From: a virus
Length of the DNA stretch: 38,756 nucleotides
IMG/VR virus record: IMGVR_UViG_3300017987_000186
Coordinates: 1 to 38,756 of that record
Strand: one strand, 5' to 3'
Under the pieces are notes generated by a model. That model saw only the letters and a list, made by a program, of their open reading frames with translations, searched no databases and had not been told where the DNA came from. The position numbers and the translations under genes were made by a program. Each line of letters begins with the position of its first letter. Position 1 is the stretch's first letter. Below are positions 636-38,646 of the stretch, in pieces.

Positions 636-1123
636 ACGACTTAAAGCCGGCAGAATACAATCCGCGAAAGATTTCCGATAATGCTCTTGCTGGTCTCGAG
701 ACGAGCGTTAAAAGATTTGGTCTTGTGCAGCCGATAGTAATCAATGAACGAACCGGCAATATTGTGGGCGGTCACCAACGACTTAAAGTTGTTTGTGATG
801 AAGAAATTGATTGTGTGATCGTTGACCTTGACGAGTCGGAAGAGAAAGCGCTAAACGTTGCGCTCAACAACCCGCACATTCAAGGCGAGTGGGACGTTGA
901 CAAGTTAGACTCTATCCTCCGCGAGATCAGCGACATCGACGTATACAAGGATCTTAAGCTTGACAAACTTGAGGTGATCATGCCGGAAGACGTGGCTAAG
1001 AATGAAATAGCCAACGTGCCGGTTTATGAAGTTGTAATAGAGTGTACCAGCGAAGGCGAGCAAAAGAGTTTATACGATGAATTCTCAGACAGAGGTCTAA
1101 AATGCCGAGTTTTGACATTGTAA
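611..1123 (+). CDS. ParB/Srx-fold phage protein
   Basis: The 170-residue protein has the ParB N-terminal (ParB/sulfiredoxin) fold at about residues 5-95: DLKPAEYNPRKIS, then SVKRFGLVQPIV and the nucleotide-site box GGHQR. It lacks the central HTH of true segregation ParB proteins, so it is unlikely to be the partition protein; that is encoded at 32105-33034. Stand-alone ParB-fold proteins are common beside phage terminases and in DNA-modification clusters. Some have nuclease or NTPase activity. The last 35 residues (VPVYEVVIECTSEGEQ...) form a small separate beta-rich tail. The gene overlaps both neighbours, indicating one transcription unit. Confidence 0.75.
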   Translation: MRIERRKVDDLKPAEYNPRKISDNALAGLETSVKRFGLVQPIVINERTGNIVGGHQRLKVVCDEEIDCVIVDLDESEEKALNVALNNPHIQGEWDVDKLDSILREISDIDVYKDLKLDKLEVIMPEDVAKNEIANVPVYEVVIECTSEGEQKSLYDEFSDRGLKCRVLTL

Positions 1124-2190
1124 GAAACAGCCGGGCGAAGAAAACCTTTCGCGTTGCCTCGGTGATGGGACGATATGACTTGACCTTTACGAAGATAAAA
1201 GAGTCTTTTGTCGGATCCATCCCGATAGAAAAACAGGATTGGCAAATCGGCGTGATCTACGGCAGATCAGGAACGGGCAAAAGCACGATAGCAAAAGAGC
1301 TGTTTGGCGATGCCGTTATTGATGGATTTACGTACACAAAAGAAAGCGTGCTAGATGATTTCGATGATAAGAACTCCGTCGAAGACATCACAAAAGCGTT
1401 TGTTTCGGTGGGTTTCTCTTCCGTTCCAAGCTGGCTAAAGCCTTACAACGTGCTATCGACCGGTGAAAAGATGCGCGTTGACTTGGCGAGATCTTTAATG
1501 TCAGAGCAAGACCTTGTTGTCTTTGATGAATACACGAGCGTAGTTGATCGTGATATTGCAAAGGTCGGCTCCCTCGCAGTATCAAAAGCGATTAGGCGAG
1601 CAGATAAACGATTTATCGCTGTTACCTGTCATTCGGATATCTCGGATTGGCTAAGTCCCGACTGGATATTTTGCACTGACAATATGTCCTTTGAATGGAC
1701 AAGGGGGAGACATCGGCGACCAGAAATCAAAATCGATGTTTACCGCTGTAAAGGATTCTGGGAGCATTTTAAAAAGTATCACTATCTAAAAGAAACGATC
1801 GGCAATAGTTCAAGGCGATACGTGGGTTTCTATGGCGACAAGCCAGTTGCTTTTGTCTCTGCTACCATACACCCGCTATCCAATGGCATGCGAAGGTATA
1901 TCATTAGAATTGAGCGTGTTGTGGTGTTGCCGGCTTATCAAGGTATCGGCATCGGTGGCAGAATGCTTGATGCCGTCTGTCAGATGTTCTATGAAGCAGG
2001 CGAGCGAGTTTCCCTTGTTACTTCTCATTATGCCCTTAATAGGCATTGGCAACACAGCCCTGATTATGTGTTGCGTAAGAAGTGCAGAAAAAAGAATCAT
2101 GGCGGATCAGCTATGAACAATAGCGGCAGTGGCAATCGTATTATAGCATCATGGGAGTATGTAAAGAGGTCTAACCATGACAATGCTTGA
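1102..2190 (+). CDS. ABC-type ATPase fused to GNAT acetyltransferase-like domain
   Basis: This 362-residue protein fuses two domains. Residues 45-185 form a soluble ABC-type ATPase: Walker A GRSGTGKST at 54-62, signature-like STGEK at 119-123, Walker B LVVFDE at 138-143 and an H-loop histidine in TCHSD near 177. There are no membrane segments. Residues 212-335 resemble GNAT enzymes: a YHYL motif at 226-229 and the acyl-CoA loop YQGIGIGG at 279-286. ATPase-GNAT proteins next to ParB-fold proteins occur in phages. The GNAT half recalls Mu Mom, which modifies adenine in phage DNA. That link is inference, but it fits the position just before terminase. The start is supported by AGAGG upstream, and the 3' end overlaps the small terminase gene. 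Confidence 0.75.
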   Translation: MPSFDIVRNSRAKKTFRVASVMGRYDLTFTKIKESFVGSIPIEKQDWQIGVIYGRSGTGKSTIAKELFGDAVIDGFTYTKESVLDDFDDKNSVEDITKAFVSVGFSSVPSWLKPYNVLSTGEKMRVDLARSLMSEQDLVVFDEYTSVVDRDIAKVGSLAVSKAIRRADKRFIAVTCHSDISDWLSPDWIFCTDNMSFEWTRGRHRRPEIKIDVYRCKGFWEHFKKYHYLKETIGNSSRRYVGFYGDKPVAFVSATIHPLSNGMRRYIIRIERVVVLPAYQGIGIGGRMLDAVCQMFYEAGERVSLVTSHYALNRHWQHSPDYVLRKKCRKKNHGGSAMNNSGSGNRIIASWEYVKRSNHDNA

Positions 2191-20261: not shown

Positions 20262-20740
20262 CACCATATTTTGCCATACCAGAAAACAAAAGCCGCTACG
20301 AAAAAATCCTGCGCAGCTGGATTGGAACTCCGTATAGGCATGCTACCGTGCTAAAAGGCAGGGCGGCGGATTGCGTGTTGTTTGTTGCGGCAACATTGGT
20401 TGAACTTGGCGTTTTGCCGCAGTTGCCGAATATGGGCTACTACTGGCGAGACTGGCCGGTGCACGGAAGAGAAGAATTCCTACTTAAAAGTATCGACACC
20501 TACCGAAAAGATTTGATCGATGGTTTGTTTTTGGAACGTTTTGAGGCCGACGAAAAGGAAGTGATTTGGGGCGATTGGATGATTTTCAAAATGTTTACAA
20601 AATTTTCAAATCATAGTGTTGTATATCTCGACGACAACCAAATTTTACACGCGGTTGTTAACGATAAAGTCCGCATTGAGCAGTATAGCAAAGGCTATAG
20701 AAACAGGCACACATACACGTATAGGCTACACCTAAAATGA
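20258..20740 (+). CDS. NlpC/P60 tail peptidase, gpK-like
   Basis: The 160-residue protein has the NlpC/P60 papain-like core. The catalytic cysteine is in GRAADCVLFV (Cys39), the histidine in FSNHSVVYLDD (His119), and a third polar residue probably in ILHAVV (His131). Such enzymes sit at the tail tip and cut peptidoglycan peptides during DNA entry. In lambda this corresponds to gpK. It overlaps the hub gene by four bases and the next gene by an ATGA. No signal peptide is present, so it is a virion component and not a free endolysin. Confidence 0.88.
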   Translation: MTPYFAIPENKSRYEKILRSWIGTPYRHATVLKGRAADCVLFVAATLVELGVLPQLPNMGYYWRDWPVHGREEFLLKSIDTYRKDLIDGLFLERFEADEKEVIWGDWMIFKMFTKFSNHSVVYLDDNQILHAVVNDKVRIEQYSKGYRNRHTYTYRLHLK

Positions 20741-23133
20741 TCGTTGATGTTCTATTGACAACTCTATTGTATACGTTCGCGGCGGTGATCTATCATCAAA
20801 GCGTTTTCGTTTATCATGCTGGCATTGTTTCTCTCATTGTGTTAGGCGTTACCGTAGCGCTCACGGTTGCAATGACCGCATACATGATGATGTCGCAAGG
20901 ATCGCAGGGCGCGGCACATCAAGACGATGCGGCGCCGGCCACGATGGACAGCCTAAACATGACACAAGTCCGCGAGGGTACAACCGTAGCGCTCACATAC
21001 GGCACGGTCAAGTTAGCCGGTAACCTAATATGGTACGGCAATTTTCGCAGCAAAGCGCAGTATCAAGAGTCCAGCATGGGCGGCGGTAAAGGCATGGGCG
21101 GCGGTGGCGGTGGCGGGACGCAACGCTATATATCAGGATACAAATACTACATCGACGCCTGGCAAGCGATTTGCCATGGTAAGGTGAGTCTTGAAACAAC
21201 CTATGTTGCAGACAAAGAACGAACCGTTTCGGCTAATTCGACGACGTGGAACGATGGAACGATGGACACCTACTCAGACCGACCAGGCGATAACGCCAAT
21301 AGGCTGTTAGGTGTAGCTCATATTTTCTGGTACAAATGGTACCTCGGGAAAAACAAAACGTACATGCCGACAGTGCATTATGTCGTGCAGAAAGAGCTAG
21401 ACGACACCGTCATTACAAACGCAAATCACGCCGACGGCAGCAGCAATCCGGCAGCAATAATATATGACCTGATGGTTAATCACAGCGGTTTTCTATCAGA
21501 TGATTTAGATATTGATGAGGCGTCGTTTCAGGCGGCGGCGGATTATTGGGAGGACAGGGATTACGGGCTTAATCTTGTGTTTAACAGCCAGATGGATTTT
21601 GCTCAGATGGTGCGCAAGGTGTTGGGATACGTCGACGGCATATTGTATCAGGATTTAGAGGGACAATGGAAATTAAACCCTTATGATCCCACGGCTACGG
21701 GCACGGTGACGCTTTCCAAAAGTGATTTTCTTGATTTCAAGATGGCCAGACCATCTTATGAAGGCACACCCAACGTCTTTATCGGCAACTACACCGATAA
21801 AGACATGGACTATACACGCCGATCTGTAGCGTGGCGCAACGACGCGAACGTTGCCTTTGTAGGCGAAAAGCGCAAGACGATAGATTTGTCAGGATTTCAC
21901 AATCTGACCATCGCCTCAAAACGCATCGCAGAAATAGGAAAACGTTTGAGCTACCCGGCTGCAAGTATTGAATTTACTACAAATTTAGGGTTTCATAGTT
22001 TGGAGTTGGGCGATGTTATTGGTGTCAGCCACTCCGATTATGGCATTGTTTCGATGGCTTTTCGTGTCGTATCGGTGAGCCTGGAGGAGATCGATAAAAA
22101 TCAGCTTAAATTTAAAGCCATCCAGCAGGTTGAAGCGATGTTTGACGACGAGCACTGGACCAGCGGCGGTAGCGCTGGAAGCGGTATAAATACAGTCGTT
22201 ACACCGTTTGTCAACCAACGGTTATTTGAGTTGCCGTTTTCGCGTTCGTGGGGGCATGACCCGGCCTTTTTGGTGCTTGCCGCGAGAATCGGAGAAGAAA
22301 CCGGCTTAAGTTTGATGTTCTCTTACGACAATGTTGATTACAACCTTGTTGATAATTTTAGCGGTTTTTCTCAGCACGGAACACTTGATGAGGCGTACCC
22401 GATAGACACTAAAACGATCGATGATGAAAATGGAATTTTGTACACTCCGACAAGGGAAGACCCTGAATTTGCAACGATTTCAAGGTCTGAACTGTTTGCC
22501 ACATCCCGCGTTATCATCATAAATGATGAAATGATGACGTTTCAGACCGTGACGCCGGAGGGGGATGACGCATATAGGTTGACAGGTATTATTCGTAATC
22601 GATTGCACACGCCACGGCAGGCGCACTCTGTTGACGATGATGTGTGGATTACAAATATTAGCATGCAAAACATTTTGCCGGCGGTCAAATCTGGCGATTT
22701 CTACGTAAAATTTGTGCCGTACATGTTGGAGACTGAGGGGGAAGCCGCATCGGCAACCGCCATACATGTTACAACGGAGTGGAAAGGCAAGACGCCGTGG
22801 GGCGCTGGTAGATTGGTTGGTGTTCGAACCGGGACAAGTTTAGCCTTAACGATTTGGCCATATACGCAGGATTACAGCGGATCGGGAACAGAGCCGGAAG
22901 ACTCGTACACCGATCAAGGACCAGAATTTCCGCATGAAGGCGATTTTGAATTGGTCTACGGCAGCACAACCGAGTACACAGAATTGACACAGAAAACAAT
23001 AACGATACCGGTAGGCGCTACAACGGTGGTTGTAAAAATGCGCAATTACGGAATGTTGAGCAGGTCATTGACGCTCAGCGTCGGTGCCGGTGACGGTACA
23101 TATATAGCAAATCAGGACGTGACACATGCCTAG
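20737..23133 (+). CDS. Central tail tip / host specificity protein, gpJ-like
   Basis: This 798-residue protein begins with two hydrophobic segments (about 5-25 and 29-54), as in lambda gpI/gpJ-type and GTA megatron N-termini. It then shows the conserved tip motif VREGTTVALTYGTVKLAGNLIWYGN (residues about 77-100) and a glycine run (GMGGGGGGG, about 118-127). The body is beta-rich, with a fibronectin- or receptor-domain-like C-terminus (YTELTQKTITIPVGATTVVVKM). It completes the L-K-J style tip module and probably sets receptor binding. Confidence 0.82.
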   Translation: MIVDVLLTTLLYTFAAVIYHQSVFVYHAGIVSLIVLGVTVALTVAMTAYMMMSQGSQGAAHQDDAAPATMDSLNMTQVREGTTVALTYGTVKLAGNLIWYGNFRSKAQYQESSMGGGKGMGGGGGGGTQRYISGYKYYIDAWQAICHGKVSLETTYVADKERTVSANSTTWNDGTMDTYSDRPGDNANRLLGVAHIFWYKWYLGKNKTYMPTVHYVVQKELDDTVITNANHADGSSNPAAIIYDLMVNHSGFLSDDLDIDEASFQAAADYWEDRDYGLNLVFNSQMDFAQMVRKVLGYVDGILYQDLEGQWKLNPYDPTATGTVTLSKSDFLDFKMARPSYEGTPNVFIGNYTDKDMDYTRRSVAWRNDANVAFVGEKRKTIDLSGFHNLTIASKRIAEIGKRLSYPAASIEFTTNLGFHSLELGDVIGVSHSDYGIVSMAFRVVSVSLEEIDKNQLKFKAIQQVEAMFDDEHWTSGGSAGSGINTVVTPFVNQRLFELPFSRSWGHDPAFLVLAARIGEETGLSLMFSYDNVDYNLVDNFSGFSQHGTLDEAYPIDTKTIDDENGILYTPTREDPEFATISRSELFATSRVIIINDEMMTFQTVTPEGDDAYRLTGIIRNRLHTPRQAHSVDDDVWITNISMQNILPAVKSGDFYVKFVPYMLETEGEAASATAIHVTTEWKGKTPWGAGRLVGVRTGTSLALTIWPYTQDYSGSGTEPEDSYTDQGPEFPHEGDFELVYGSTTEYTELTQKTITIPVGATTVVVKMRNYGMLSRSLTLSVGAGDGTYIANQDVTHA

Positions 23134-23890
23134 AAAATTAGCGAGCGAAAAAAGATTGAAGGCCGTAGAGCTAGACGACGAAGGCCGAAGCGCATGGTTT
23201 AAATATAAGTTCGAACGGTTTATGAAAAAAATCGAGGTCGACAAGCAGGCCAAGTCTGTGTCGAAGGCGATTTTGACATCAGGCATTGAAACGCTTGGAT
23301 ACAGTCTACAGGGTTGGGATGCCGTGCTTGACACCGATTTGGAATTGATCGATGAAAAAGTTGGTGGCCCGTTTTCGTCTACGTATGATATTGGCGATAA
23401 CCGAACAACCGTTACCGATAATAGCACAACGCAGGCAGACCCGGACGCCATAACAGCGCAGACGCTAACAGACAATAGCGGAGGTACGCCGAGCGATACT
23501 ATAGCCGCGTTGGTCATTGACCCTGCTGCGTACACGTCGGCAACCATGACCGACAGCAGCGGCGGCACGCCCGGGTTAACAATCGGCGCCGTGTCCGGCA
23601 GTGGCGCAGATACGGCGATCAATGATAATTTTGCCAGCACAGGTGATCAAATAAACAAATTGATTGTCGACATCGGCGCGATCCGTACGGAACTAAACGC
23701 GGAAGATGACAACCTAAACACAATAAATGCTTCGCTGGTAGACGAAATCAACAAACTAAAGACGGATTTGACATCCGTGAGAACGGCGCTTGTAGGCGTG
23801 ATTGACTACGCCGACGCACTTAAAGCAACGGTAAACGCCTTGCAGGGCAAACTGAGAGAAACGAACGGCTGTGGAATTTTTGACGATTAA
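23126..23890 (+). CDS. Tail fibre or tip-associated structural protein with repeats
   Basis: This 254-residue protein follows the tip gene, overlapping it by eight bases, with AGGA upstream of the ATG. After a helical N-terminus (1-60) it has two copies of a TLTDNSGGTPSDTIAAL-like motif (about 112-128 and 140-156). A heptad-rich helix follows (DQINKLIVDIGAIRTELN...INKLKTDLTSVRTAL). The TDNSGGT repeats followed by a coiled coil are common in phage fibre-attachment proteins. It is the last clearly structural gene before the cargo block. Confidence 0.6.
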   Translation: MPRKLASEKRLKAVELDDEGRSAWFKYKFERFMKKIEVDKQAKSVSKAILTSGIETLGYSLQGWDAVLDTDLELIDEKVGGPFSSTYDIGDNRTTVTDNSTTQADPDAITAQTLTDNSGGTPSDTIAALVIDPAAYTSATMTDSSGGTPGLTIGAVSGSGADTAINDNFASTGDQINKLIVDIGAIRTELNAEDDNLNTINASLVDEINKLKTDLTSVRTALVGVIDYADALKATVNALQGKLRETNGCGIFDD

Positions 23891-23898
23891 TCGGGAAG

Positions 23899-23916
23899 TG
23901 TTCGAACGTTCGAACA
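23899..23916. repeat. Palindrome TGTTCGAACGTTCGAACA, copy 3
   Basis: An 18-base perfect palindrome lies between the structural gene ending at 23890 and the ribosome site (GGAGG) of the next gene. It marks the left edge of the kinase-caspase cargo block. It shares the core found at 4539 and 13132. Confidence 0.88.
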
Positions 23917-23928
23917 GTGGAGGTAGAC

Positions 23929-24684
23929 ATGGGAAAGAACGAAAAAGATTTGCTGGATAAAACAGCGGACATGTGGCGAGAGCCTGTCAAGGGCGTGTTC
24001 GATATCATCGAACGCATAAATATGTTGATAGCGTTTTTCGGTGACAAATGGCCGAAGATACAAGGGATGATCGATTGGGTCAAGACGGTTTGGCCTGAGC
24101 TGTTAGCCTTGAAAGACAAGGTAATCGTTATCTGGACCAAGATCCTTTATTTCATTAAGGAGGTGTTTCGCCAGCTTGAACCGGGCATCTACAGCAAGGT
24201 TGTTGCGGAGTTAAAGGAAAAAGACAAGTGGCCGAAAGATCCGAGATCGTTTCCATTTTTTGAGTTTTTCACTAATCCAGAAATCATAAACGGAGCCGTA
24301 ACAATCCTTGTGAGCGTGTTTAATGGTATCGCTTCGTTGTTCGGTGGTGGTGATAAATCCAGCACACCTAAAGGAGTAGCGCGCGATTCTAAAGGCGTTT
24401 TGGCGACGTTGCAAAGCATCGAGTCGGCAATTGGATTGCTGCCTGATCTGTTGGCTAAGTCCAAGGAGCGTGGGGATAAGAGCATTGATGAGCTTATCGC
24501 GTTTATGGAGAAAAACTTTCTTAAGGATGACGGCCTGAAAACGGTAATCAACGAAGCGGTGGGTGATGCGGTAGAAGTTGGAGTTGCCGCTGGCATGGAA
24601 GACGCTTTCCATCGCGGCAGATTTGAATCCACATCTGAGTGGGTGCCTAACGAAAACGGGCACGAGGACGATGAGGACGAGTAA
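23929..24684 (+). CDS. Unknown protein at head of cargo block
   Basis: I chose the ATG at 23929 because GGAGG stands five bases before it; this gives 251 residues. The protein is mainly helical. Trp- and Ile-rich amphipathic segments (about 35-75: WPKIQGMIDWVKTVWPELLA, IWTKILYFIKEVF) may lie on a membrane. A short hydrophobic run (INGAVTILVSVFNGIASLFGGG, about 120-141) is followed by a helical half with KSIDELIAFMEKNF. The tail is very acidic (NGHEDDEDE). I do not recognise a family. Its position suggests co-expression with the signalling genes. Confidence 0.55.
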   Translation: MGKNEKDLLDKTADMWREPVKGVFDIIERINMLIAFFGDKWPKIQGMIDWVKTVWPELLALKDKVIVIWTKILYFIKEVFRQLEPGIYSKVVAELKEKDKWPKDPRSFPFFEFFTNPEIINGAVTILVSVFNGIASLFGGGDKSSTPKGVARDSKGVLATLQSIESAIGLLPDLLAKSKERGDKSIDELIAFMEKNFLKDDGLKTVINEAVGDAVEVGVAAGMEDAFHRGRFESTSEWVPNENGHEDDEDE

Positions 24685-24686
24685 AA

Positions 24687-24878
24687 ATGATGTCTCCTCG
24701 ACAGTTTGTCAAAGCGGTCAAGATTGACCGCAGATACAAAAAAGAAGATCGGAAATGGTTAGAAAGCAGACCTACGCCGGAAGAGACGCAGGCGATAATA
24801 GAATTAGCGTTATCGATAAGGAAAGAGGACGATGAGCGACGAAACAGAACTCTCGTTAATGGAAACCGAAAAGCCTGA
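24687..24878 (+). CDS. Small basic unknown protein
   Basis: This 63-residue charged protein (MMSPRQFVKAVKIDRRYKKE...) starts three bases after the preceding stop with GAGGA upstream. It overlaps the next gene by 47 bases. No domain is recognised. The overlap at both ends argues that it is translated as part of the operon. Confidence 0.5.
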   Translation: MMSPRQFVKAVKIDRRYKKEDRKWLESRPTPEETQAIIELALSIRKEDDERRNRTLVNGNRKA

Positions 24879-25251
24879 AGCGGAACAACAAAAATCTGAT
24901 GAAGAGCAAGAATGCTCTATCCAAGATAAAGCTAAAGTGGCGTTTGTCCGTTTAGCTGAAAGCTACCCTACACCGGACGATGAGGACGATGAGGACAACG
25001 AAAGCCGGTTAAGCGGCGTGCTTGACTTTTTGGAAAGCGCTTACTATATCCTTGAAATTATCTCGCATCTATCGTCAATGTCTTTAGGGGTAGCGGTGAC
25101 GTGTCTTTTTATCCCAAACATGCCCAAAGGGCTGATAACATTTTTCATCTTGATCCTGTTTGCCGCATACATATTTTCGCAAAAATGTGTGTTTATCGTT
25201 TTCAAACAAAACCGTTCTACCGATTACACTGTAGTAAATCCGGGCATGTAA
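24832..25251 (+). CDS. Small membrane protein with acidic N-terminus
   Basis: The ATG has AGAGGACG upstream. Residues 1-63 are strongly acidic (Glu/Asp runs such as PDDEDDEDNE). Residues 66-125 contain two hydrophobic segments: YYILEIISHLSSMSLGVAVT into CLFIPN, and GLITFFILILFAAYIF. The short C-terminus is polar. This could be a holin-like protein or a membrane effector or anchor of the kinase-caspase system, since it lies two genes upstream of them. No family is recognised. Confidence 0.6.
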   Translation: MSDETELSLMETEKPEAEQQKSDEEQECSIQDKAKVAFVRLAESYPTPDDEDDEDNESRLSGVLDFLESAYYILEIISHLSSMSLGVAVTCLFIPNMPKGLITFFILILFAAYIFSQKCVFIVFKQNRSTDYTVVNPGM

Positions 25252-25252
25252 G

Positions 25253-26206
25253 ATGAGTTATCTTAAGCAAATCATAACCGATGATGACGGCAAGCGTCGC
25301 GTTAAAAGCACAATAGCGTTAACTGACAAATTTGATTTAGGCAAAGGCCATGGGTCCATCTTGCCGGGTACGCCTGGCGGATGGATGCTGCATTGCAATC
25401 ATGGTATACGATTTTGCGGTGCAAAATTTGGCAGCGGGAAAACTCGCATACATGACGAAAGTCTTATAGAGCTAGACACCGGTGAGTGCTATTTGTTTTT
25501 TGATGAGGATGAAGAGCTAACCAGGCGCAAAACCGCAGAGCTTAAGTTGTCCGTACCAGAAAAGGTGCGTGATCAATTGAGCAAACAGGAGCAAGTCAAG
25601 CTTCGCATTGAGATGCAAAAAGTAATTTCAGAAGCACCGAAAGACATGGAAGGTTTTGCTAAATTTTTCAATGCTTACATCCTTGCAACATATCATTTTG
25701 ACCGTGGCATTTTTTATGTGATCAGTGAGCGCACAGTGAACCGTGTATACAGGCGCGGCGAAAAGTCTATCAAGCGTAAAGTCTGCAAGACTAGCCTGCA
25801 ATCATTATCTAGCCGAACAGTCAACGCCGATATTGTCAAGTATGTCCCCCCTAAAAGCATCGCAAGAGATGTTTTAAACGGCGGCGGTGATGCAATCATA
25901 CGCTATCCTGATGAAGAGGAAGACGTTTCATTGTCCATTGTGGAGCGCAAAATACAGACTGTGATTTGCTATCCATGCTATGCCCGAGGTGGTCTAAAGC
26001 CGGTGTCTATCTACTATGTCGATTCGTTGAACGTTATCAAGCGTTTGGATGTTGAGAAGGTTTGTTTTTTATGTTCGCTTTTGGGGTCACAGGTTGACAG
26101 ATTGCTAAAGAAAAAAAGCGTTGCTACGGATGAAGAGAGCGAATTAAAAACACCCGTGCCACCATTGAAACAATTAAAATTCAGGGATGAAGATGAAATC
26201 GATTGA
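25253..26206 (+). CDS. FHA/GAF-like putative signalling protein
   Basis: This 317-residue protein has two regions suggestive of signalling domains. Residues 42-85 (GWMLHCNHGIRFCGAKFG, KTRIHDESLIELDTGECYLF) resemble the second half of an FHA domain. Residues 195-290 have a GAF-like core: SIVERKIQTVICYPCYARGG, then KPVSIYYVDS and KVCFLCSLLGSQVDRLL. FHA-GAF proteins often sit beside Hanks-type kinases, and here the kinase gene overlaps this one. The similarity is read by eye and weak for the FHA part, where the usual Gly-Arg and Ser-x-x-His residues are not evident. A helical segment (about 90-130) links the two. Confidence 0.45.
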   Translation: MSYLKQIITDDDGKRRVKSTIALTDKFDLGKGHGSILPGTPGGWMLHCNHGIRFCGAKFGSGKTRIHDESLIELDTGECYLFFDEDEELTRRKTAELKLSVPEKVRDQLSKQEQVKLRIEMQKVISEAPKDMEGFAKFFNAYILATYHFDRGIFYVISERTVNRVYRRGEKSIKRKVCKTSLQSLSSRTVNADIVKYVPPKSIARDVLNGGGDAIIRYPDEEEDVSLSIVERKIQTVICYPCYARGGLKPVSIYYVDSLNVIKRLDVEKVCFLCSLLGSQVDRLLKKKSVATDEESELKTPVPPLKQLKFRDEDEID

Positions 26207-27236
26207 CGCAATCTTAGGCATATTAGAGCGAAGCAAACGCAAGATTGACGGTAGATGGCAACCGACCGCAAGCGAACATTTCGTAAATCTTATTGAGCGC
26301 TGTTCTCCGAAGCTTAAATATGAAGCCGTGCTCGGCATGGGCACGGAGGCCTTTTTGTTTGTCGTAAAACATTTACCGCTCAACGCAAAAATGGTTATAA
26401 AGATACCCCGACCGCATCTGGCAACGCAGGCGGTAGAACGTTTTATTCGCACAGCGCGTACACTTGAAACGCTAGACAAGGATTGTTTTCCGAACGTCAA
26501 GGATCTTAACGAAGATCCGCTGTATTGCCTTTTGTCGTATTCGGATGGTGACACTTTGCGCGATTGGATCTGGTCATCGCGGTGGCGTTTCCATGCTGGC
26601 ATTGAGTTGTTTAGGCAGGTGTTAAACGCCGTGGCCATTTTGCACCGAGATGATATTGTTCATCGCGATTTGCGCATTGATAACATTTTGGTAATACCTG
26701 GCGGCAGGATCAAGGTTATCGATTTTGGATTGGCAAAAGCGATAACAGATGAAACGCTAACCATGGCGGAAACCGCACTAGGCAGTGTTGGATATAGCCC
26801 GCCAGAGCAGATAGATGACGCCTTGAGTGCTACAAAGGCCAGCGATATATTTACTCTGGGAAGAGTGTTTTATGTGTTGGCTGTCAGAGCCGAAGGCGTC
26901 CGTGTAAAGACTAAAATCAAGTGGAAAACAGAGTTGCTTTACGATGCCGGCTTGACGCAAGACGCAATTGATTTTTATCAAAAGGCGTGCAATTTTTATC
27001 CTGAAAAGCGTTTTCAAACAGGCGGTGAAATGTTGCAAGCATTAAACATGCTCTACAAACCTGAAAATCAAACCATCGGCGAAGAGATCGATAAACTAAA
27101 AGATATGTTCGTTTATTGTGATGGTCATCACGCGAGAACCGCGAGGATGGCCGGTAAGAAAACAGCTCAAGTACATCGTGAGCTAAACGCTATCAAGGCG
27201 AGGATGGCAAAAAAATGGCTTATATCCCGATATTAA
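26193..27236 (+). CDS. Hanks-type Ser/Thr protein kinase
   Basis: I prefer the ATG at 26193 (347 residues), with AGGG six bases upstream, over an ATG six bases earlier. The kinase core spans about residues 42-280: glycine loop GMGTEAF at 48-54, ATP lysine MVIKIP (Lys70), catalytic loop IVHRDLRIDNILV (Asp159, Asn164), DFG at 177-179, and a GYSPPEQ APE-type motif at 200-206. All catalytic residues are present. Arg161 replaces the lysine usual after HRDL in Ser/Thr kinases. No membrane segment or extracellular domain exists, so it is cytosolic. It overlaps the upstream FHA/GAF-like gene by 14 bases and the caspase gene by 22. Confidence 0.9.
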   Translation: MKSIDAILGILERSKRKIDGRWQPTASEHFVNLIERCSPKLKYEAVLGMGTEAFLFVVKHLPLNAKMVIKIPRPHLATQAVERFIRTARTLETLDKDCFPNVKDLNEDPLYCLLSYSDGDTLRDWIWSSRWRFHAGIELFRQVLNAVAILHRDDIVHRDLRIDNILVIPGGRIKVIDFGLAKAITDETLTMAETALGSVGYSPPEQIDDALSATKASDIFTLGRVFYVLAVRAEGVRVKTKIKWKTELLYDAGLTQDAIDFYQKACNFYPEKRFQTGGEMLQALNMLYKPENQTIGEEIDKLKDMFVYCDGHHARTARMAGKKTAQVHRELNAIKARMAKKWLISRY

Positions 27237-28009
27237 AAAGCGGCGTAACGCCGACATTGCCGGCAAAGCCACAAAACGCCGGCAAAAAAGATTGCTACGG
27301 TGCCGTGTTTCTCGGCATCGATAAATACAAGGTGAACAATCATTGGAACCTGCAAGGCTGTGTAAATGATTGCCACAACGTTATAAGCACAGTGCGTAAC
27401 AAATACAATGTCGATACCGTAAACGATGCCAAAAAATTGTTAGATTACGAGGCAACGAAAGCCAACACGTTAAACGCTCTGCGATGGATGGTCAACACCT
27501 ACAGGCGCGGAATATTTACTTTTTCGTGCCATGGTTCGCAGATACCCGATGAAAGCGAGCCTGACCGCAAAGCGGAAGTATTGATCACGACTGACCACCG
27601 GTGGGAAGATCCGCTTATCGACGATGAAATCAAAGCCATTGTCGAGCAAATGGACGAATGCGTGATCATTGCAGATTGCTGTCACGCTGAAGGCATTTCA
27701 CGCGGCGGCTGGATAGCCAAAAGCGTTGTATGCCCTGAAGGCGTTTGCATGCGTTTACCGCGTACAGTGCGCAATTTAGCGCATGTCAAAGAGCTGGCAG
27801 CTTGCAGAAGTGATCAGACAGCCAGCGAGCGATATATTGACGGCAAGCGGCAGGGCGTGTTTACATACACGCTTTGCAAAATATTGCGTGAGCATCCGGG
27901 CATAGCATTGCAAGATTTGCAAGCACGGCTGCGGGCAGAAATTGACGGGCAGACGCCTGTGATTACAGGCACCGGCTTGCTTTTAGAGCACGCCGGCATA
28001 TCAGCATAA
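27215..28009 (+). CDS. Caspase-fold cysteine protease (C14, metacaspase/orthocaspase type)
   Basis: The 264-residue protein is a complete p20-like caspase domain: YGAVFLGIDKY strand (28-38), LQGCVNDCHNVISTV (46-60), catalytic His106 in FTFSCHGSQ, and catalytic Cys156 in IIADCCHAEG. The conserved ELAACRSDQTASE and GVFTYTLCKIL blocks follow. These are the standard signatures of bacterial orthocaspases, which cut after Arg or Lys. There is no signal peptide or transmembrane segment. The start overlaps the kinase gene by 22 bases, so the two are probably translated together. The kinase may control the protease or be its substrate. Confidence 0.9.
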   Translation: MAYIPILKSGVTPTLPAKPQNAGKKDCYGAVFLGIDKYKVNNHWNLQGCVNDCHNVISTVRNKYNVDTVNDAKKLLDYEATKANTLNALRWMVNTYRRGIFTFSCHGSQIPDESEPDRKAEVLITTDHRWEDPLIDDEIKAIVEQMDECVIIADCCHAEGISRGGWIAKSVVCPEGVCMRLPRTVRNLAHVKELAACRSDQTASERYIDGKRQGVFTYTLCKILREHPGIALQDLQARLRAEIDGQTPVITGTGLLLEHAGISA

Positions 28010-28027
28010 CGAAAGGAGGTGGCAATC

Positions 28028-29608
28028 GTGGCAGACGCAGAAATAGAAATTTTTGCAAGCGGGAAAAAAAGCTTTAGCGTAGATTTTGCGGCAGATGAAA
28101 CAGTGAAAACAATCAGCATTAAGCCTGATTTTAGCAAAAATGCTATCATGCCGCTGATAAATAGATTGCACTTAGCAATCCCAAACTGGACGAACAATGT
28201 CACGCTAGATGTTGCATTTACAGACAGCGAAGATGGCAATGATAAGGTGCTAGACAACATGTACACCGCAGAAGCGCGCAACCAAAGCGATGCGCAGCTC
28301 ACAGACATGGATATACCTGTAGGCGGTGAAGTGATATGCACGCTTACATTGTCAGGCGCGCCCGGCAATGCTGGAAGCATTGATGGTACGCTGTATTCGT
28401 CTTTTAGCCGAGGGGGGAACAGCAGTAGCGGCAATGCTGTTCAATGGGAGGGTAGCGGCTATATAGATTTTGACAGCATTGCGGCGCCCGGCAATCCAGA
28501 CGCTGGCACATTGCGCCTTTACAATGAGAGCGGCGCGTTTAATGTGCGCAATGCCGCCGGCACTGTGATCAATTTGCTCACAGACGCGATCGGCGCTAAT
28601 GCGGCATTGTCGAACCTGTCCAGCGTGGCGATTAACACGGCATTGGTGAGTGATACAGACGACACCGACGATCTCGGCACGTCGTCGATCGGTTGGCGCT
28701 CGTTGTACCTGTCGTCATCGATTCTCGGCACGGTTGCAGACGGCGCGAACACCGCGCTGACATTTGGAAATTCTACCGCGCTTACCACGGCGGGTGGAAA
28801 AATTGCGTCGTTTACGTCGGATGCTGGCGTGACCGAGCGGGCGTATATAGACTACCTCGGGAAATACGTCGGTAGCGCGGTGAGGGCAGACGCCGGCAGT
28901 GCGGCGGCGCCGTCTATAGCTATCGGTGCAGATGGCACGGGCATTTATGGCGGTAGCGTTATTGATTTTGCGATCGGAGGTTCAAATGCAGGACGAATCG
29001 AATCAGGCCTAATGCGTTTCGCTGAATACCGACCGCGAAGCGTTGCTTCGTTGAAATTAAACGGGTTATATCAAGATTCGACAACGGCAGTTGCAGCAAA
29101 AATAGGAAACGTTTATTCTTTGTCAACCACAGGCGCAAAAATAGCGTCGTTTTTTAGCGATAACTTCATCACCGAGCGGGCCTACATTAACTACCTCGGG
29201 AAAATTGCAGCATACGGCGGATTGTCCGCAGAATCCAGCACAGGCGGAGGAGAGGCACGAAAACATAGTGAGGCGACTGTAACGCTCTCCGGCGCGTCAA
29301 GTACCTGCCATGTCAACGTACCAATCGGCGCAAAGATAACCGGGTGGCAGTACAACACCGAAACCGCCGTGATATCAGGAGATGGCGCAACGTCTTTAGA
29401 TATCGCTTTCTCGGGAGGGTCAACAACAAACCTTGCTACAGGGCAAGCGTTTGCACAGAATACCAAAGATGGTGCGCTGATTACCCCGGAAATTATCAGT
29501 AGTGAGGCTGATATTGCAGTCACGCCCGACAGCGGGACGTTTTCAGGCGGAGTGTTGCGGTTTATCGTTTATTATTCAGAGATTACCGCGTTAGCGGATG
29601 TCGCATAG
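28028..29608 (+). CDS. Tail fibre protein
   Basis: The start is GTG at 28028, set by a strong AAAGGAGG at 28012-28019, giving 526 residues. The N-terminal 130 residues form a beta domain. The middle carries the fibre phrase YIDFDSIAAPGNPDAGTLRLYNESGAFNVRN, and two repeats follow: GKIASFTSDAGVTERAYIDYLGK and AKIASFFSDNFITERAYINYLGK. Glycine- and alanine-rich strands make up the rest. This is typical of modular phage fibres. The very strong ribosome site fits high expression of a virion protein and marks the right edge of the cargo block. Confidence 0.75.
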   Translation: MADAEIEIFASGKKSFSVDFAADETVKTISIKPDFSKNAIMPLINRLHLAIPNWTNNVTLDVAFTDSEDGNDKVLDNMYTAEARNQSDAQLTDMDIPVGGEVICTLTLSGAPGNAGSIDGTLYSSFSRGGNSSSGNAVQWEGSGYIDFDSIAAPGNPDAGTLRLYNESGAFNVRNAAGTVINLLTDAIGANAALSNLSSVAINTALVSDTDDTDDLGTSSIGWRSLYLSSSILGTVADGANTALTFGNSTALTTAGGKIASFTSDAGVTERAYIDYLGKYVGSAVRADAGSAAAPSIAIGADGTGIYGGSVIDFAIGGSNAGRIESGLMRFAEYRPRSVASLKLNGLYQDSTTAVAAKIGNVYSLSTTGAKIASFFSDNFITERAYINYLGKIAAYGGLSAESSTGGGEARKHSEATVTLSGASSTCHVNVPIGAKITGWQYNTETAVISGDGATSLDIAFSGGSTTNLATGQAFAQNTKDGALITPEIISSEADIAVTPDSGTFSGGVLRFIVYYSEITALADVA

Positions 29609-29618
29609 AGGAGAGAAT

Positions 29619-29969
29619 ATGGGATTAGCAATTGAGTTTCCGAGCAATCACGATTTGACACAAAATGAGACATCATATCTCATGCTGGAGCGAGATTATG
29701 ATGACGTAAGAAAAAGTGGCTCGCTAAACATTAACGCATGGGTGAGCAAAGCCGCGAGGAATGCCGGATCACAAAAATCCTGCCTACTCACGATCCCGAT
29801 AGAAAACGCGGACGAAGTGGTCGACGACGAAAACGGCGGCACGATTGTCTCTCTCAGTTGGGACGACGTCGGATGGGCCGGCGGTGGTGAATTGTATACG
29901 AAGATGAAAACGCTGAAAGTGTTGATACACGGACAGGTTGTCGACTTATCGAAGGCAGAAAACGCTTAA
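29619..29969 (+). CDS. Unknown small protein after tail fibre
   Basis: The ATG at 29619 has GAGGAG upstream (116 residues). The protein has a soluble, acidic and beta-leaning composition (SLNINAWVSKAARNAG, CLLTIPIENADEVVDDENGG). Position after a fibre gene could suggest a fibre chaperone or a minor virion protein. No family is recognised. Confidence 0.55.
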   Translation: MGLAIEFPSNHDLTQNETSYLMLERDYDDVRKSGSLNINAWVSKAARNAGSQKSCLLTIPIENADEVVDDENGGTIVSLSWDDVGWAGGGELYTKMKTLKVLIHGQVVDLSKAENA

Positions 29970-31413: not shown

Positions 31414-31701
31414 CTACCAAATCCAAGCTATTTGATGATATCCGTTGTCCTTGCGCGAAAATTCGATCTGTATCCATTCCGTCTCGTCGCATAGTGGACA
31501 CTCCACCGATTCAAAAGAGTACTTCTGTAGATCAGCGTCGAGCGGTACGATTTCAGCGTCTGCGAAATCACCGGCCTCAATCATTTCTTTAATGGTTTCT
31601 GGGGTGGCGTACCCAGGGCCACCAGTTCCAGGCCCATCGTCGTTGTAAACGATCCCCGCACCTTGCCGCACGATGTCTTTTATTTTTTCTTCGATATTCA
31701 T
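31414..31701 (-). CDS. Unknown protein with CPLC motif
   Basis: The start at 31701 (95 residues) has AAGGAA at a good distance. The N-terminal helix (MNIEEKIKDIVRQGAG), a Gly/Pro loop (GPGTGGPGYATPE) and a C-terminal part with ECPLCDETEWIQIEF suggest a small metal-binding protein. A GCCCGG/CCGGGC hairpin at 31717-31732 stands just upstream of the ribosome site. No family is recognised. Confidence 0.55.
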   Translation of the reverse strand: MNIEEKIKDIVRQGAGIVYNDDGPGTGGPGYATPETIKEMIEAGDFADAEIVPLDADLQKYSFESVECPLCDETEWIQIEFSRKDNGYHQIAWIW

Positions 31702-31716
31702 CTTCAATTCCTTTCT

Positions 31717-31732
31717 GCCCGGTCACCCGGGC
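31717..31732 (-). promoter_or_regulatory. GC-rich hairpin next to a ribosome site
   Basis: A perfect 6-bp stem GCCCGG/CCGGGC with a 4-base loop ends two bases before AGAAAGGAA in leftward RNA. It may affect translation of the 95-residue gene. No T-run follows, so it is not a typical terminator. Confidence 0.4.
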
Positions 31733-31762
31733 GAATCTCACATAAGCTATGTTATCAGACAC

Positions 31763-32092
31763 CTAAAACCGATCTACCGTGCATACATAAAAATCATAGT
31801 CGCTCATGTCAGCGCCGTGATTGCCTCTTTTCTCATGCGGATCAACGCGATATCTGAGCGTCATAGCCAGCATTGTATCGCCGGCTTTCACCTGCGTTTT
31901 GTCGCGACAGGTTTTAAAATCGGTGCCAAACAATTGATTCAACACCTTGCAGGCATTCGGGTATCCGATGTACTGCCGAAAATCATCTGCATGCTCGTAA
32001 AACAGTTTGCGAGCCTCATCTGCCGTTATCAACTCTGGCCGGTAAACCAGGCCCGGCCTTGGCATCATAAGGCTATTCATTATGTGCAACAT
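31763..32092 (-). CDS. DUF1874 / AcrIII-1-like (viral ring nuclease homologue)
   Basis: This 109-residue protein aligns by eye with the DUF1874 family (STIV B116, SIRV1 gp29): MLHIMNSLMMPRPG at the start, YIGYPNACKVLNQLFG at 41-56, then VKAGDTMLAMTLRYRVDPHEK and the end DYDFYVCTVDRF. Known members such as AcrIII-1 degrade cyclic tetra-adenylate and block type III CRISPR signalling. In them the second motif reads IGH, and the histidine is catalytic. Here Tyr44 takes its place, while an arginine in the later motif (Arg80 or Arg82) remains. It may bind but not cut its ligand, or use another chemistry. AAAGGG precedes the ATG. Confidence 0.7.
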   Translation of the reverse strand: MLHIMNSLMMPRPGLVYRPELITADEARKLFYEHADDFRQYIGYPNACKVLNQLFGTDFKTCRDKTQVKAGDTMLAMTLRYRVDPHEKRGNHGADMSDYDFYVCTVDRF

Positions 32093-32104
32093 GTTGTGTC
32101 CCTT

Positions 32105-33034
32105 TCAAAATCCGTGTGAGCTTTTCCAATCCTTGATAACTTTCCCAAGCGCTCTTAATCCTCCCACACTCAAAAAGTCAAACGCCTTTTCGCCATTAGT
32201 ACCGACGTGCATTGAAATTTCAACGAGCGCCTTGTGTATTTCATCCGGACTCAATTCATCGATCAGGCCGAATTTTTCAAGCTCTTTCGGGCTTGCGTCA
32301 ATGTCCCATTTCGGCGGCTCCGGCATTTCATCCCTGCCGCTGTATCCTCTCGCTTGTGCTTCGCTAAGATCACCTTTCTCAAAGTGTCGGACGTCCGACA
32401 CTTTTTGTTTTGCCTCTCTCACTGAGTCGGCTTTCAAAATCTCATCTTGCTTTTTCGGATCCTTTTCCTTAGCTATTAGGATCAATTTTGATATGTCGGA
32501 CGTCCGACACTTTTCCCGGTTGCTCTCAGGGATCCGTAATATCGATATCAATTCACTCACCCGGCTCCGGCTTAATCCTACCATCCCGGCAAGCTCTTTT
32601 TGAGAGATTTTCCGCCCTTCACTTTCCTCTAATCGCGTTCTGAGGTCGGACAGGGCTTCGGCACGGTCAAACGGCCACAAGTCTTCTCTCATTTCGTTAT
32701 CTAAGAATTGATTGATTTTCAACTCCTCATCATTCATAGAGGGGAAAATCACGCAAGGCAATTCATCAAGACCGGCGTTAACGGCCGCTTGATAGCGCCG
32801 ATGTCCATTTATGATTTTATATCGATCCTTGCTTACCAGCACCACAAGAGGCGTTTTGACTCCCACAGATTTGACCGAGTCGGCCAAATCTTCCATGCTA
32901 TCATCGTTGATTGACCGGCGGTAATTTGTTTCATCGGGATCCAGCTTCCGAATATCAAGCATTCGGTAAACGGGTTTTGTGGGCTTGCCGTTTTTGCCGA
33001 ACATCCCGAAAGATATATCACCTAGTTTTGACAT
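32105..33034 (-). CDS. parB: ParB partition protein
   Basis: The 309-residue protein has the ParB N-terminal domain (about 22-115) with the nucleotide box NGHRRYQAA (GHRR in place of the usual GERR). A central HTH follows (about 146-172: ISQKELAGMVGLSRSRVSEL), and the helical C-terminus ends VEISMHV...VIKDWKSSHGF. It follows ParA on the same strand with a 13-base overlap and a GAGGAG ribosome site. Two palindromes of the TGTCGGACGTCCGACA type lie inside its coding region and encode CRTSDI and VSDVRHF, so candidate binding sites are embedded in the gene. Confidence 0.9.
   Translation of the reverse strand: MSKLGDISFGMFGKNGKPTKPVYRMLDIRKLDPDETNYRRSINDDSMEDLADSVKSVGVKTPLVVLVSKDRYKIINGHRRYQAAVNAGLDELPCVIFPSMNDEELKINQFLDNEMREDLWPFDRAEALSDLRTRLEESEGRKISQKELAGMVGLSRSRVSELISILRIPESNREKCRTSDISKLILIAKEKDPKKQDEILKADSVREAKQKVSDVRHFEKGDLSEAQARGYSGRDEMPEPPKWDIDASPKELEKFGLIDELSPDEIHKALVEISMHVGTNGEKAFDFLSVGGLRALGKVIKDWKSSHGF
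32381..32404. repeat. parS-like palindrome inside parB (24-bp perfect)
   Basis: The core TGTCGGACGTCCGACA is extended to 24 perfectly paired bases. Like chromosomal parS, it is a 16-base palindrome opening TGT and closing ACA with CG at the centre. It lies in coding sequence and encodes KVSDVRHF in parB. Confidence 0.8.
32494..32509. repeat. parS-like palindrome inside parB (second)
   Basis: An exact TGTCGGACGTCCGACA copy lies 107 bases from the first, centre to centre. It encodes KCRTSDI, so the same DNA motif is read in a different frame from the other copy. Confidence 0.8.
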
Positions 33035-33753
33035 CTGTTGATTCTCCTCAGTGTTTCTTTTGCAAAATCCTCATAGCATTTTGCACCGGTTGACCTTGGG
33101 GCATATTCAAAAATGCTCTTTCCATGACTCGGAGCCTCTTCAAGTTTGACGTTTTGGCGAATTTCGGCCTTGTAGAGCATTCCGCCTAAGTGTTTTTTAT
33201 AGAGGGCTAAAACTTCATTTGTGACACGTTTTCGCCGGTCAACCATGGTCGGCAACACTCCCAAAAGGTTTTTAGCGTCCCAATTGCTAAGGATTTGTTG
33301 TAATCCCTCTAATGAAAGATATTGAGGCGTAACCGGGATGATGACCGCTTGAGAGAGTGTAATAGCGGCCACAGATAAACATGAAAAAGAGGGAGGCGTA
33401 TCTATTATAATATAGTCATAGTTGCCGCCGACGTCATTTATGATCGTCTCAAGAGCGTTACTATTTGCTCCGATCACCAAATCAATACCGGCAAGGCCGA
33501 TACCGGCCGGGATGATGTCCCCGCAAGACGTTTTAACGATTGCTTTTTTAGGCGTCCTGTCCTGTAAAATAATCTCATCAAGCGTGATGTCGGGAGTATT
33601 AACGCCGACATGTTTTGAGAGGGAGGCTTGAGAGTCAACGTCAAGCATGAGGACGTTTTTCTTTTTCTTGACATGGAGATAGGCGGCCAGGGCGGCGGCG
33701 GTTGTTGTTTTGCCTACTCCGCCTTTGCTACATACTAATGATATAATAATCAT
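33022..33753 (-). CDS. parA: ParA partition ATPase
   Basis: The 243-residue protein is a small (type Ib-like) ParA. The deviant Walker A is SKGGVGKTTTAA at 9-20. VLMLDVDSQASLS follows at about 34-46, then YDYIIIDTPPSFS (about 111-123). There is no N-terminal HTH, so operon autoregulation probably depends on ParB or another protein. It is coupled to parB by overlap. The upstream 75 bases carry three parS-like sites. Confidence 0.93.
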   Translation of the reverse strand: MIIISLVCSKGGVGKTTTAAALAAYLHVKKKKNVLMLDVDSQASLSKHVGVNTPDITLDEIILQDRTPKKAIVKTSCGDIIPAGIGLAGIDLVIGANSNALETIINDVGGNYDYIIIDTPPSFSCLSVAAITLSQAVIIPVTPQYLSLEGLQQILSNWDAKNLLGVLPTMVDRRKRVTNEVLALYKKHLGGMLYKAEIRQNVKLEEAPSHGKSIFEYAPRSTGAKCYEDFAKETLRRINRCQN

Positions 33754-37138: not shown

Positions 37139-37447
37139 TTATCGGCCGGAAAAATTGAAATGGATTTCAGGCGGCCATGAGGTACTTTCTCCGATACTCC
37201 CGGTTGTATAGTTGCTATGGATTGTTGAGCCTTTGACGATCATTCTTTCTTGCGCCTGGCCGTTGTATTCACACCGGATAAGAGCGGAGCGCTCACCCCA
37301 AAAACCGGTAAGATCGACGGCAAGCGGAGTAACACCGGCATAATCACCACGTATGTAAACTTTCGCCCCTTGTGGAGATGAGTTTATTGCAGTTGTGGCA
37401 CAACCGGCAAGGATGAGGAGAGAGAGGATATAGAGGTATTTATTCAT
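37139..37447 (-). CDS. PEGA-domain lipoprotein
   Basis: The 102-residue protein has a short signal peptide ending in the lipobox LAGC (Cys16), so it should be lipid-anchored. A PEGA-like domain follows at once (INSSPQGAKVYIRGDYAGVTPLAVDL, 21-46). It is encoded with the repressor, overlapping it by eight bases, so it is likely expressed in the lysogen. Small lysogen-expressed lipoproteins often block superinfection or change the cell surface. That role is inference. Confidence 0.8.
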   Translation of the reverse strand: MNKYLYILSLLILAGCATTAINSSPQGAKVYIRGDYAGVTPLAVDLTGFWGERSALIRCEYNGQAQERMIVKGSTIHSNYTTGSIGESTSWPPEIHFNFSGR

Positions 37448-37790
37448 TGATTTTATCCTTTAGCGTTTTGTAAAATTTAGCTCTTGTTGCACTATCTAAA
37501 TTATCCAAATGACTAAGGATAGAATCAAGCAAAAATAGTACCCCTTTTTCGTCTATTTCTATTTCTATATCTTTGTGTCTAGGGTCGAAGTGGGATAGAT
37601 CTTTTTCAAATGCTATAGCTATTCTAAATAGGTTTCTCAATGATATCCAATGTTTGCCAGATTCCCATTTTGAGATTTCACGTTGTTGTGATAGCGGATC
37701 AACTTTCTTTGCAAATTCTTTTTGAGTCAATTCGCCCCTTAACTCTCTTATGCGTTTTGCAATGTATTTTATGTATTTTTTGTCTTCCAT
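37440..37790 (-). CDS. XRE-family repressor, CI-like
   Basis: The 116-residue protein has an N-terminal HTH (about 8-65: IAKRIRELRGELTQKEFAKK, SQQREISKWESGKHW) and a helical C-terminus suited to oligomerisation. It has no LexA-like peptidase domain. No ribosome site precedes the ATG; a TATGAT -10 box at 37802-37807 would place the transcript start only about five bases away, so the mRNA may be leaderless, like lambda cI from PRM. It faces away from the rightward promoter at 37821. Confidence 0.8.
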   Translation of the reverse strand: MEDKKYIKYIAKRIRELRGELTQKEFAKKVDPLSQQREISKWESGKHWISLRNLFRIAIAFEKDLSHFDPRHKDIEIEIDEKGVLFLLDSILSHLDNLDSATRAKFYKTLKDKINE

Positions 37791-37986: not shown

Positions 37987-38646
37987 ATGAGTAGAGAAAG
38001 TTTTGTATTCGAGTATGTTCATCCTATGTCCAATGAAGAACTACTTAAAGAATTTGTGGTATTGAACGCTAAAATACTTGTTCATTCTCACTTAAGGCTT
38101 TATCTTAAACAAGAAAAATATGAGATAGTAAACATAACAATGTTTATAGTTGATCGTTCAAGGGGTGAAAATCCATATTACGCCAATGAAGAAATACGTT
38201 TTATCGATAGCGAAGAAGCAAAATCTAAAGTTCCTAATACTGTATCAGTTAAACCTATCAATGAGTTTTTTCCGTTTATCAGGAATGTTGATCGATTAAA
38301 TGATTTTTGCAAACCGAATAAACATAAAGAGCTGAAAATAGTTGTGTTTTTTGAGAGAGAAGAAAAACCAAATCGCAAATTTTATCATTATGGAAAGAAC
38401 GGTATTTTTGGATTTCATCTAAGAATGAACAATAAAGGTATAAAGAAATTTGCTTATGACAAGCAAGAACATGTCGTAATTATGAAAGTGATACAACTTA
38501 GAAATCGAGGATTATCCACTTCAAAAATTACTAAGCTCTTGAATGATGAAGGGATCAAAACAAAAAGAGGAAAGAAATGGGACTCAAAAACTCTCTATCG
38601 GTTATGCAAAAAATATGAATCAATCTATATTCTTGACTCAATCTGA
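37987..38646 (+). CDS. Unknown protein with recombinase-like C-terminal HTH
   Basis: The 219-residue protein has GAGGAAAG before its ATG. Its first 160 residues are a mixed domain I do not recognise (FVFEYVHPMSNEELLKEFVV...). Residues about 163-212 (IMKVIQLRNRGLSTSKITKL, LNDEGIKTKRGKKWDSKTLY) closely follow the DNA-binding Recombinase domain of large serine recombinases. The catalytic resolvase domain is absent. It is transcribed opposite to the repressor and is AT-rich compared with the structural genes, suggesting later acquisition. It may be a regulator of the switch or a recombination factor. Confidence 0.6.
   Translation: MSRESFVFEYVHPMSNEELLKEFVVLNAKILVHSHLRLYLKQEKYEIVNITMFIVDRSRGENPYYANEEIRFIDSEEAKSKVPNTVSVKPINEFFPFIRNVDRLNDFCKPNKHKELKIVVFFEREEKPNRKFYHYGKNGIFGFHLRMNNKGIKKFAYDKQEHVVIMKVIQLRNRGLSTSKITKLLNDEGIKTKRGKKWDSKTLYRLCKKYESIYILDSI

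Follow-up and report, generated by a model that had tools for sequence, protein, structure and literature searches.

Profile comparisons, scored against shuffled sequences and real open reading frames (ORFs), together with an earlier GAF call in the initial annotation, indicated that P0001, a 317-residue phage protein encoded directly ahead of a Ser/Thr protein kinase and a caspase-fold protease, very probably carries a GAF domain, and this GAF domain is very divergent. An FHA fold, which the initial annotation had placed ahead of the GAF domain, was rejected at the sequence level by profile searches, model scores and a signature search. The leading proposal, in which P0001 regulates the kinase as a partner of GAF type, is considered evenly balanced.

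The window, which is the whole stretch of DNA analyzed in this study, is the IMG/VR virus record IMGVR_UViG_3300017987_000186 (38756 bases, 45% GC). A second record, IMGVR_UViG_3300029267_001908 (50640 bases), spans the window with 100% identity except for one gap. Genes for terminase, portal, head protease, major capsid, major tail, tape-measure and tail-tip proteins are located on the + strand. The ORF encoding P0001 was found exactly where the initial annotation had placed it, and the kinase and protease genes follow at once. The features of the region from the tail-tip gene onward are as follows:

20737–23133, + strand: tail-tip gene, which precedes genes at 23126 and 23917 and then a 56-residue ORF at 24687
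24832–25251, + strand: membrane-type protein of 139 residues with an acidic N-terminus and a hydrophobic C-terminal half (hydropathy peak 2.2 at residue 106)
25253–26206, + strand: P0001, ORF of 317 residues, an orphan by sequence
25253–25537, + strand: N-terminal part of P0001, about 95 residues, the proposed FHA region, to which no fold is assigned
25580–26095, + strand: probable GAF domain of P0001, about residues 110–281, delimited by a GAF model built from FHA-GAF proteins
26187–27236, + strand: Hanks-type Ser/Thr protein kinase by profile and motifs, 349 residues (347 if the start is at 26193)
27215–28009, + strand: metacaspase-type caspase-fold protease by Peptidase_C14 profile, His106 and Cys156, 264 residues
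starting at 28019: fibre-like protein, so called from a reading of its sequence by eye

The genes in this region are tightly packed. The gene for the 139-residue protein ends 1 base before P0001, the kinase and protease genes overlap by 22 bases, and all genes from the tail-tip gene to that of the fibre-like protein overlap or are at most 26 bases apart. The overlap of P0001 with the kinase gene depends on the start codon of the kinase: the 14 bases given in the initial annotation hold if translation starts at the second in-frame ATG (26193), and the overlap is 20 bases if it starts at the first (26187). Promoter-like sites (14 found, 11.8 expected) and terminator-like sites (7 found, 10.7 expected) in this stretch were at chance level. 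Gene order, overlaps and the lack of a clear terminator fit a single transcript, as the initial annotation had proposed for P0001, the kinase and the protease. No family above noise was found for the 139-residue protein in Pfam, PHROGs, PADLOC and NCBIfam, and it is regarded as a candidate membrane partner or effector within the cassette. Directly before the cassette, a 255-residue protein with hydrophobic stretches and no clear family is encoded at 23917–24684 (+), and it could be a cassette member. A foreign origin of P0001 and the kinase gene was rejected on composition, since their GC content and codon use were similar to those of the structural genes; those of the protease gene were slightly off.

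The position of the cassette in a late operon makes a lytic or virion role possible. In this alternative, the cassette would belong to the late lytic programme or the virion, encoding tail-associated or injected proteins, rather than form a module of its own for defence or lysogeny. Such a role is favored by the position of the cassette, flanked by the tail-tip and fibre-like genes on the late strand, by the overlapping genes and by the chance-level counts of promoter- and terminator-like sites, but the cassette proteins matched no structural family, kinases and caspases are to our knowledge not usual parts of virions, and the place of a lysis function may already be taken by a holin-like gene at 31673–32119 (+; weak match to phrog_1129, E 0.0017). 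A late lytic or virion role was judged improbable, and the cassette is unlikely to be a lysis module because of the same holin-like gene. The ORF at 32082–32603, adjoining the holin-like gene, had no match and could encode a lysis partner.

Other genes in the window bear on the lifestyle of the phage. At 32105–33753 (-), a ParB-like gene (ParB_N 1e-15) adjoins a ParA-like gene (AAA_31 2.1e-37), as in a possible plasmid-like prophage, and a repressor-like gene is located at 37440–37790 (-; phrog_8, 9e-12). These three genes suggest a temperate, perhaps plasmid-like phage, in which case a lysogen could express the cassette. An integrase/recombinase-like gene is present at 37987–38646 (+; phrog_95, 1.1e-8). 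The product of the gene at 1102–2190 (+) resembles phage proteins whose annotation is ABC-transporter-like or siderophore transporter (phrog_11143, 8.3e-93); the highest identity, 49%, was to a protein of Lactococcus phage P335.

The family assignments of the two enzymes were supported by both profile matches and catalytic residues. The product of the gene at 26187 matched Pkinase (Pfam, 2.8e-25), phrog_2361 (1e-30) and StkP in the PDB (1.4e-23), and the motifs VIK, HRDL and DFG are present at residues 70, 159 and 179; it is, on profile and motifs together, a Hanks-type Ser/Thr kinase. Its best PADLOC match had an E value of 7.6e-37, but 34 kinase-type models matched, so the PADLOC result says only that the protein is a Ser/Thr kinase. 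The product of the gene at 27215 matched Peptidase_C14 (Pfam, 1.1e-17) and metacaspase-1 in the PDB (1.8e-13), and His106 and Cys156 were invariant in two alignments; with this profile and the His-Cys dyad it is assigned as a metacaspase-type C14 protease.

In contrast to the two enzymes, P0001 matched nothing usable in sequence searches of Pfam, NCBIfam, PHROGs, PADLOC and the PDB. Weak matches to Dicer_platform (E 0.022–0.078), Ribosomal_S7 and Zeta_toxin in Pfam and to RadA in the PDB (E 0.21–0.31) were taken as noise. No relatives were found among 50,697 phage or 72,556 plasmid records (E up to 1), only P0001 itself matched in viral contigs, and genome contigs yielded none with single-sequence patterns, which reach close relatives only. 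Six-frame searches were carried out as well. One of 20 chosen genomes matched at E up to 0.1 (L149, with one stop inside), and at E <= 0.001 there was one match among 392 genomes of the phylum of genome G033 and one each among 395 and 398 genomes of the phyla of G032 and G039. One match in each of three phylum samples means that such matches occur at chance rate, and the matches in the samples of 395 and 398 genomes appeared spurious. L149 and another locus, L183, in a frame with two stops, were judged chance, as was L184, a 625-residue protein that by eye resembles a periplasmic folding factor.

The match among the 392 genomes (L150) aligned residues 209–300 of P0001 with the GAF domain of a 537-residue FHA-GAF-HD protein, in which Pfam identified FHA (3.3e-18), GAF (1.5e-12) and HD_5 (5.5e-38). 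A contig of G033 (L102) is titled Sedimentisphaerales, which we take to be a planctomycete order. Searches with the L150 protein gave matches in 140 of 149 genomes, from which 30 FHA-GAF loci were taken for building GAF and FHA models. Two over-long rows (659 and 529 residues) were left out, giving 28 rows, or 27 without L151, the row retrieved by P0001 itself. A GAF model from ten plasmid matches was dropped, as its usable rows were of a different GAF type.

P0001 scored 15.4 bits on the GAF model with all 28 rows, and the alignment covered approximately residues 110–281; the GAF-like block of the initial annotation is therefore supported in kind, with a different extent from the residues 195–290 given there. 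With the self-retrieved row removed (27 proteins), the score was 13.9 bits, compared with 5.7 bits for the best of 2000 shuffled sequences, and hhalign gave 28.2 for P0001 against this model and at most 22.3 in 100 shuffles. When 8762 real ORFs and P0001 were ranked on the GAF model, P0001 was second, behind a true GAF protein (L105, 59.4 bits), and the next ORF scored 6.2 bits. These full-length scores are partly selected, since the GAF family was chosen via the L150 match. Because that choice was made through residues 209–300, residues 96–208 were scored alone, and this unselected half of the domain reached 5.1 bits, a value reached by 12 of 2000 shuffles and thus of modest significance only.

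Curated GAF models did not detect the domain: no GAF family appeared in Pfam, either at E up to 1 with the entire protein or at E up to 10 with five separate segments, and a six-frame search of the record with PF13185 (GAF_2) found none. Curated Pfam GAF models miss divergent members. Scans of viral contigs with FHA-GAF alignments returned just this phage or an FHA-only locus, and a DNA pattern for a GAF motif returned three loci with no convincing GAF among them.

Structure predictions for P0001 were weak. The single-sequence AlphaFold2 model of the full-length protein, which was the only model covering residues 1–100, had a pLDDT of 31.7 and was too weak to use, and a model of residues 100–295 had a pLDDT of 53.3 and a pTM of 0.49. 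Foldseek comparison of the latter model with the PDB gave a best E value of 0.25 and mostly proteasome chains, which were taken as noise, and no GAF chain was seen among the 50 matches listed. In the VIA-align comparison of the Foldseek candidates, rows 1 and 2 were PDE6C (Z 4.5) and row 6 was the NifA GAF domain (Z 3.6), amid unrelated folds; these noise-level matches of a weak fragment model are consistent with a GAF domain. It may be argued that the GAF resemblance arose by chance and that P0001 has a different fold and stands alone as an orphan, given the weak models and the lack of support from Pfam, NCBIfam, PHROGs or the PDB. This explanation is very unlikely, as the scores against shuffles and real ORFs and the prior, independent call in the initial annotation speak against it.

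The FHA-like block that the initial annotation had proposed at residues 42–85 did not withstand the same analyses. There was no FHA match in Pfam for whole P0001 (E up to 1) or for five pieces (E up to 10), P0001 gave no FHA match when the record was searched in six frames with PF00498, and the FHA model built from the FHA-GAF proteins did not report it. The hhalign score against this model was 11.4, lower than that of the top shuffle (18.0), and residues 1–100 scored -0.8 bits, which 398 of 2000 shuffles also attained. As a control, 12 of the 27 true members, each left out in turn, scored 74–115 bits on the FHA model. The phosphothreonine-binding signature of FHA domains consists of GR...SxxH and SxNG, and a pattern search found these residues absent from P0001. 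A very degenerate FHA-like sandwich in residues 1–100 is possible. Profile searches for the two folds, suggested as a check in the initial annotation, thus recovered GAF with the FHA-GAF-derived model and neither fold with curated ones. Of the input sensor proposed there, a GAF domain adjoining a kinase fits, but the FHA half failed all tests made.

The arrangement of these genes was compared with that in other genomes. One caspase alignment retrieved 41 viral contigs, one of which is this phage, and a second retrieved 367 bacterial caspase loci, many of them deltaproteobacterial by record title, from which the best 80 were taken. ORFs of at least 60 residues were searched in flanks of up to 6 kb (viral) or 8 kb (genome), less at contig ends. 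A kinase relative was found near the caspase in none of the 40 other viral contigs and in one of the best 80 bacterial loci (L099, Bacteroidetes), and one was also present in an Enterococcus phage whose locus had been taken for its kinase. In the loci searched, neither P0001 nor the membrane-type protein had a relative outside this phage. Among 20 FHA-GAF regions, a kinase relative was present in 2 and absent from 18, and no caspase relative was found. In one of the 20 regions, L191 (2251–6118, -), an FHA-GAF gene is followed at a distance of 10 bases by a Ser/Thr kinase gene, so FHA-GAF and Ser/Thr kinase genes do occur as neighbors; by eye, this FHA-GAF gene also encodes PAS and histidine-kinase parts. 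Because the whole arrangement was found in a single phage, a pathway has no backing from co-conservation, and the chain of sensor, transducer and effector put forward in the initial annotation lacks this support. In two of the caspase-bearing viral contigs (L018 and L020), the caspase gene is preceded at a short distance by a gene for an HNH endonuclease, and a caspase encoded in a 485 kb huge-phage record (LR745208.1, L010) is 27% identical to that of the window.

No paper on a phage-borne GAF-kinase-caspase cassette appeared in search listings of the open-licence literature, and known systems resemble it in part. P0001 is similar to Planctomycetota FHA-GAF proteins, such as the FHA-GAF-HD protein of L150, in having the same GAF type after an N-terminal domain of similar size, and these proteins are at least once encoded beside a Ser/Thr kinase gene. 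Unlike them, P0001 has no detectable FHA domain or output domain of its own and is encoded in a phage with a caspase. The PD-T4-6 and Stk2 kinase defences (PADLOC models) share the Ser/Thr kinase domain, and PD-T4-6 is a single-gene system. Stk2 is likewise described as a single-gene system (PMC11341870), whereas the kinase here is located in a multi-gene cassette. KKP is a prophage module of two kinases and a PP2C phosphatase, in which PfkB carries an FHA domain, and no caspase is mentioned in the available part of its description (PMC11341870). Prophage-borne Ser/Thr kinase signalling is common to both, but the cassette combines a single kinase with a GAF protein and a protease. Pfam searches of nine genes in the interval 20737–29969 found one kinase and no phosphatase. 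Kaur et al. 2020 describe caspase conflict systems, such as EACC1-caspase, in which the gene for a caspase-superfamily peptidase of bacteria is accompanied by a partner gene (PMC7159879). The cassette shares this pairing, but its partners are different ones, and neither EACC1 nor MoxR-vWA nor a fused C-terminal domain was seen; the match to the EACC1-type caspase model scored 20.1 bits, where the cut-off is 140, with no EACC1 match in eight genes scanned.

Among the readings considered, a sensor-kinase-protease order suits the anatomy of the cassette best, although what is established is its domain content and gene packing. A partnership of P0001 with the kinase is somewhat favored. In the proposed mechanism, the GAF domain of P0001 would bind a small ligand or protein that changes in the course of infection or of lysogeny, and the ligand state would alter the contact of P0001 with the Ser/Thr kinase encoded by the overlapping gene. 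The kinase would then phosphorylate members of the cassette as well as host or phage targets. Control of the protease by the kinase, put forward by analogy with caspases and kinases in other systems, is judged rather less likely than not; once on, the protease could cut a target, for which the membrane-type product of the gene just upstream is one possibility. The cell might be harmed or killed, leading to exclusion of a second phage or affecting the timing of release, and such a cell-death outcome, drawn from the same analogy, is doubtful.

Alternatively, P0001 may be a substrate of the kinase or a scaffold, in which a ligand-free GAF-like dimerisation domain brings the kinase and protease together. 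The strong divergence of the GAF domain and an N-terminal domain to which no fold is assigned would suit this role; nothing direct speaks against it, and GAF domains commonly bind ligands. It was considered unlikely. The regulatory reading of P0001, taken to its full extent, would make the cassette a late-operon phage death switch, in which a GAF sensor controls the kinase and the kinase controls the metacaspase-type protease; this complete scheme, from one phage, is rather unlikely as it stands. It is with the same reserve that the cassette may be viewed as a virus-encoded sensor-kinase-protease chain, a kind otherwise met in pieces in bacteria.

In conclusion, prophage kinase modules (KKP) and bacterial conflict-system caspases are each already known. 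The weight of the cassette is limited by its occurrence in one lineage so far, but a sensor-like protein, a kinase and a caspase encoded together in a phage tail region would join phosphorylation to proteolysis in one viral unit.
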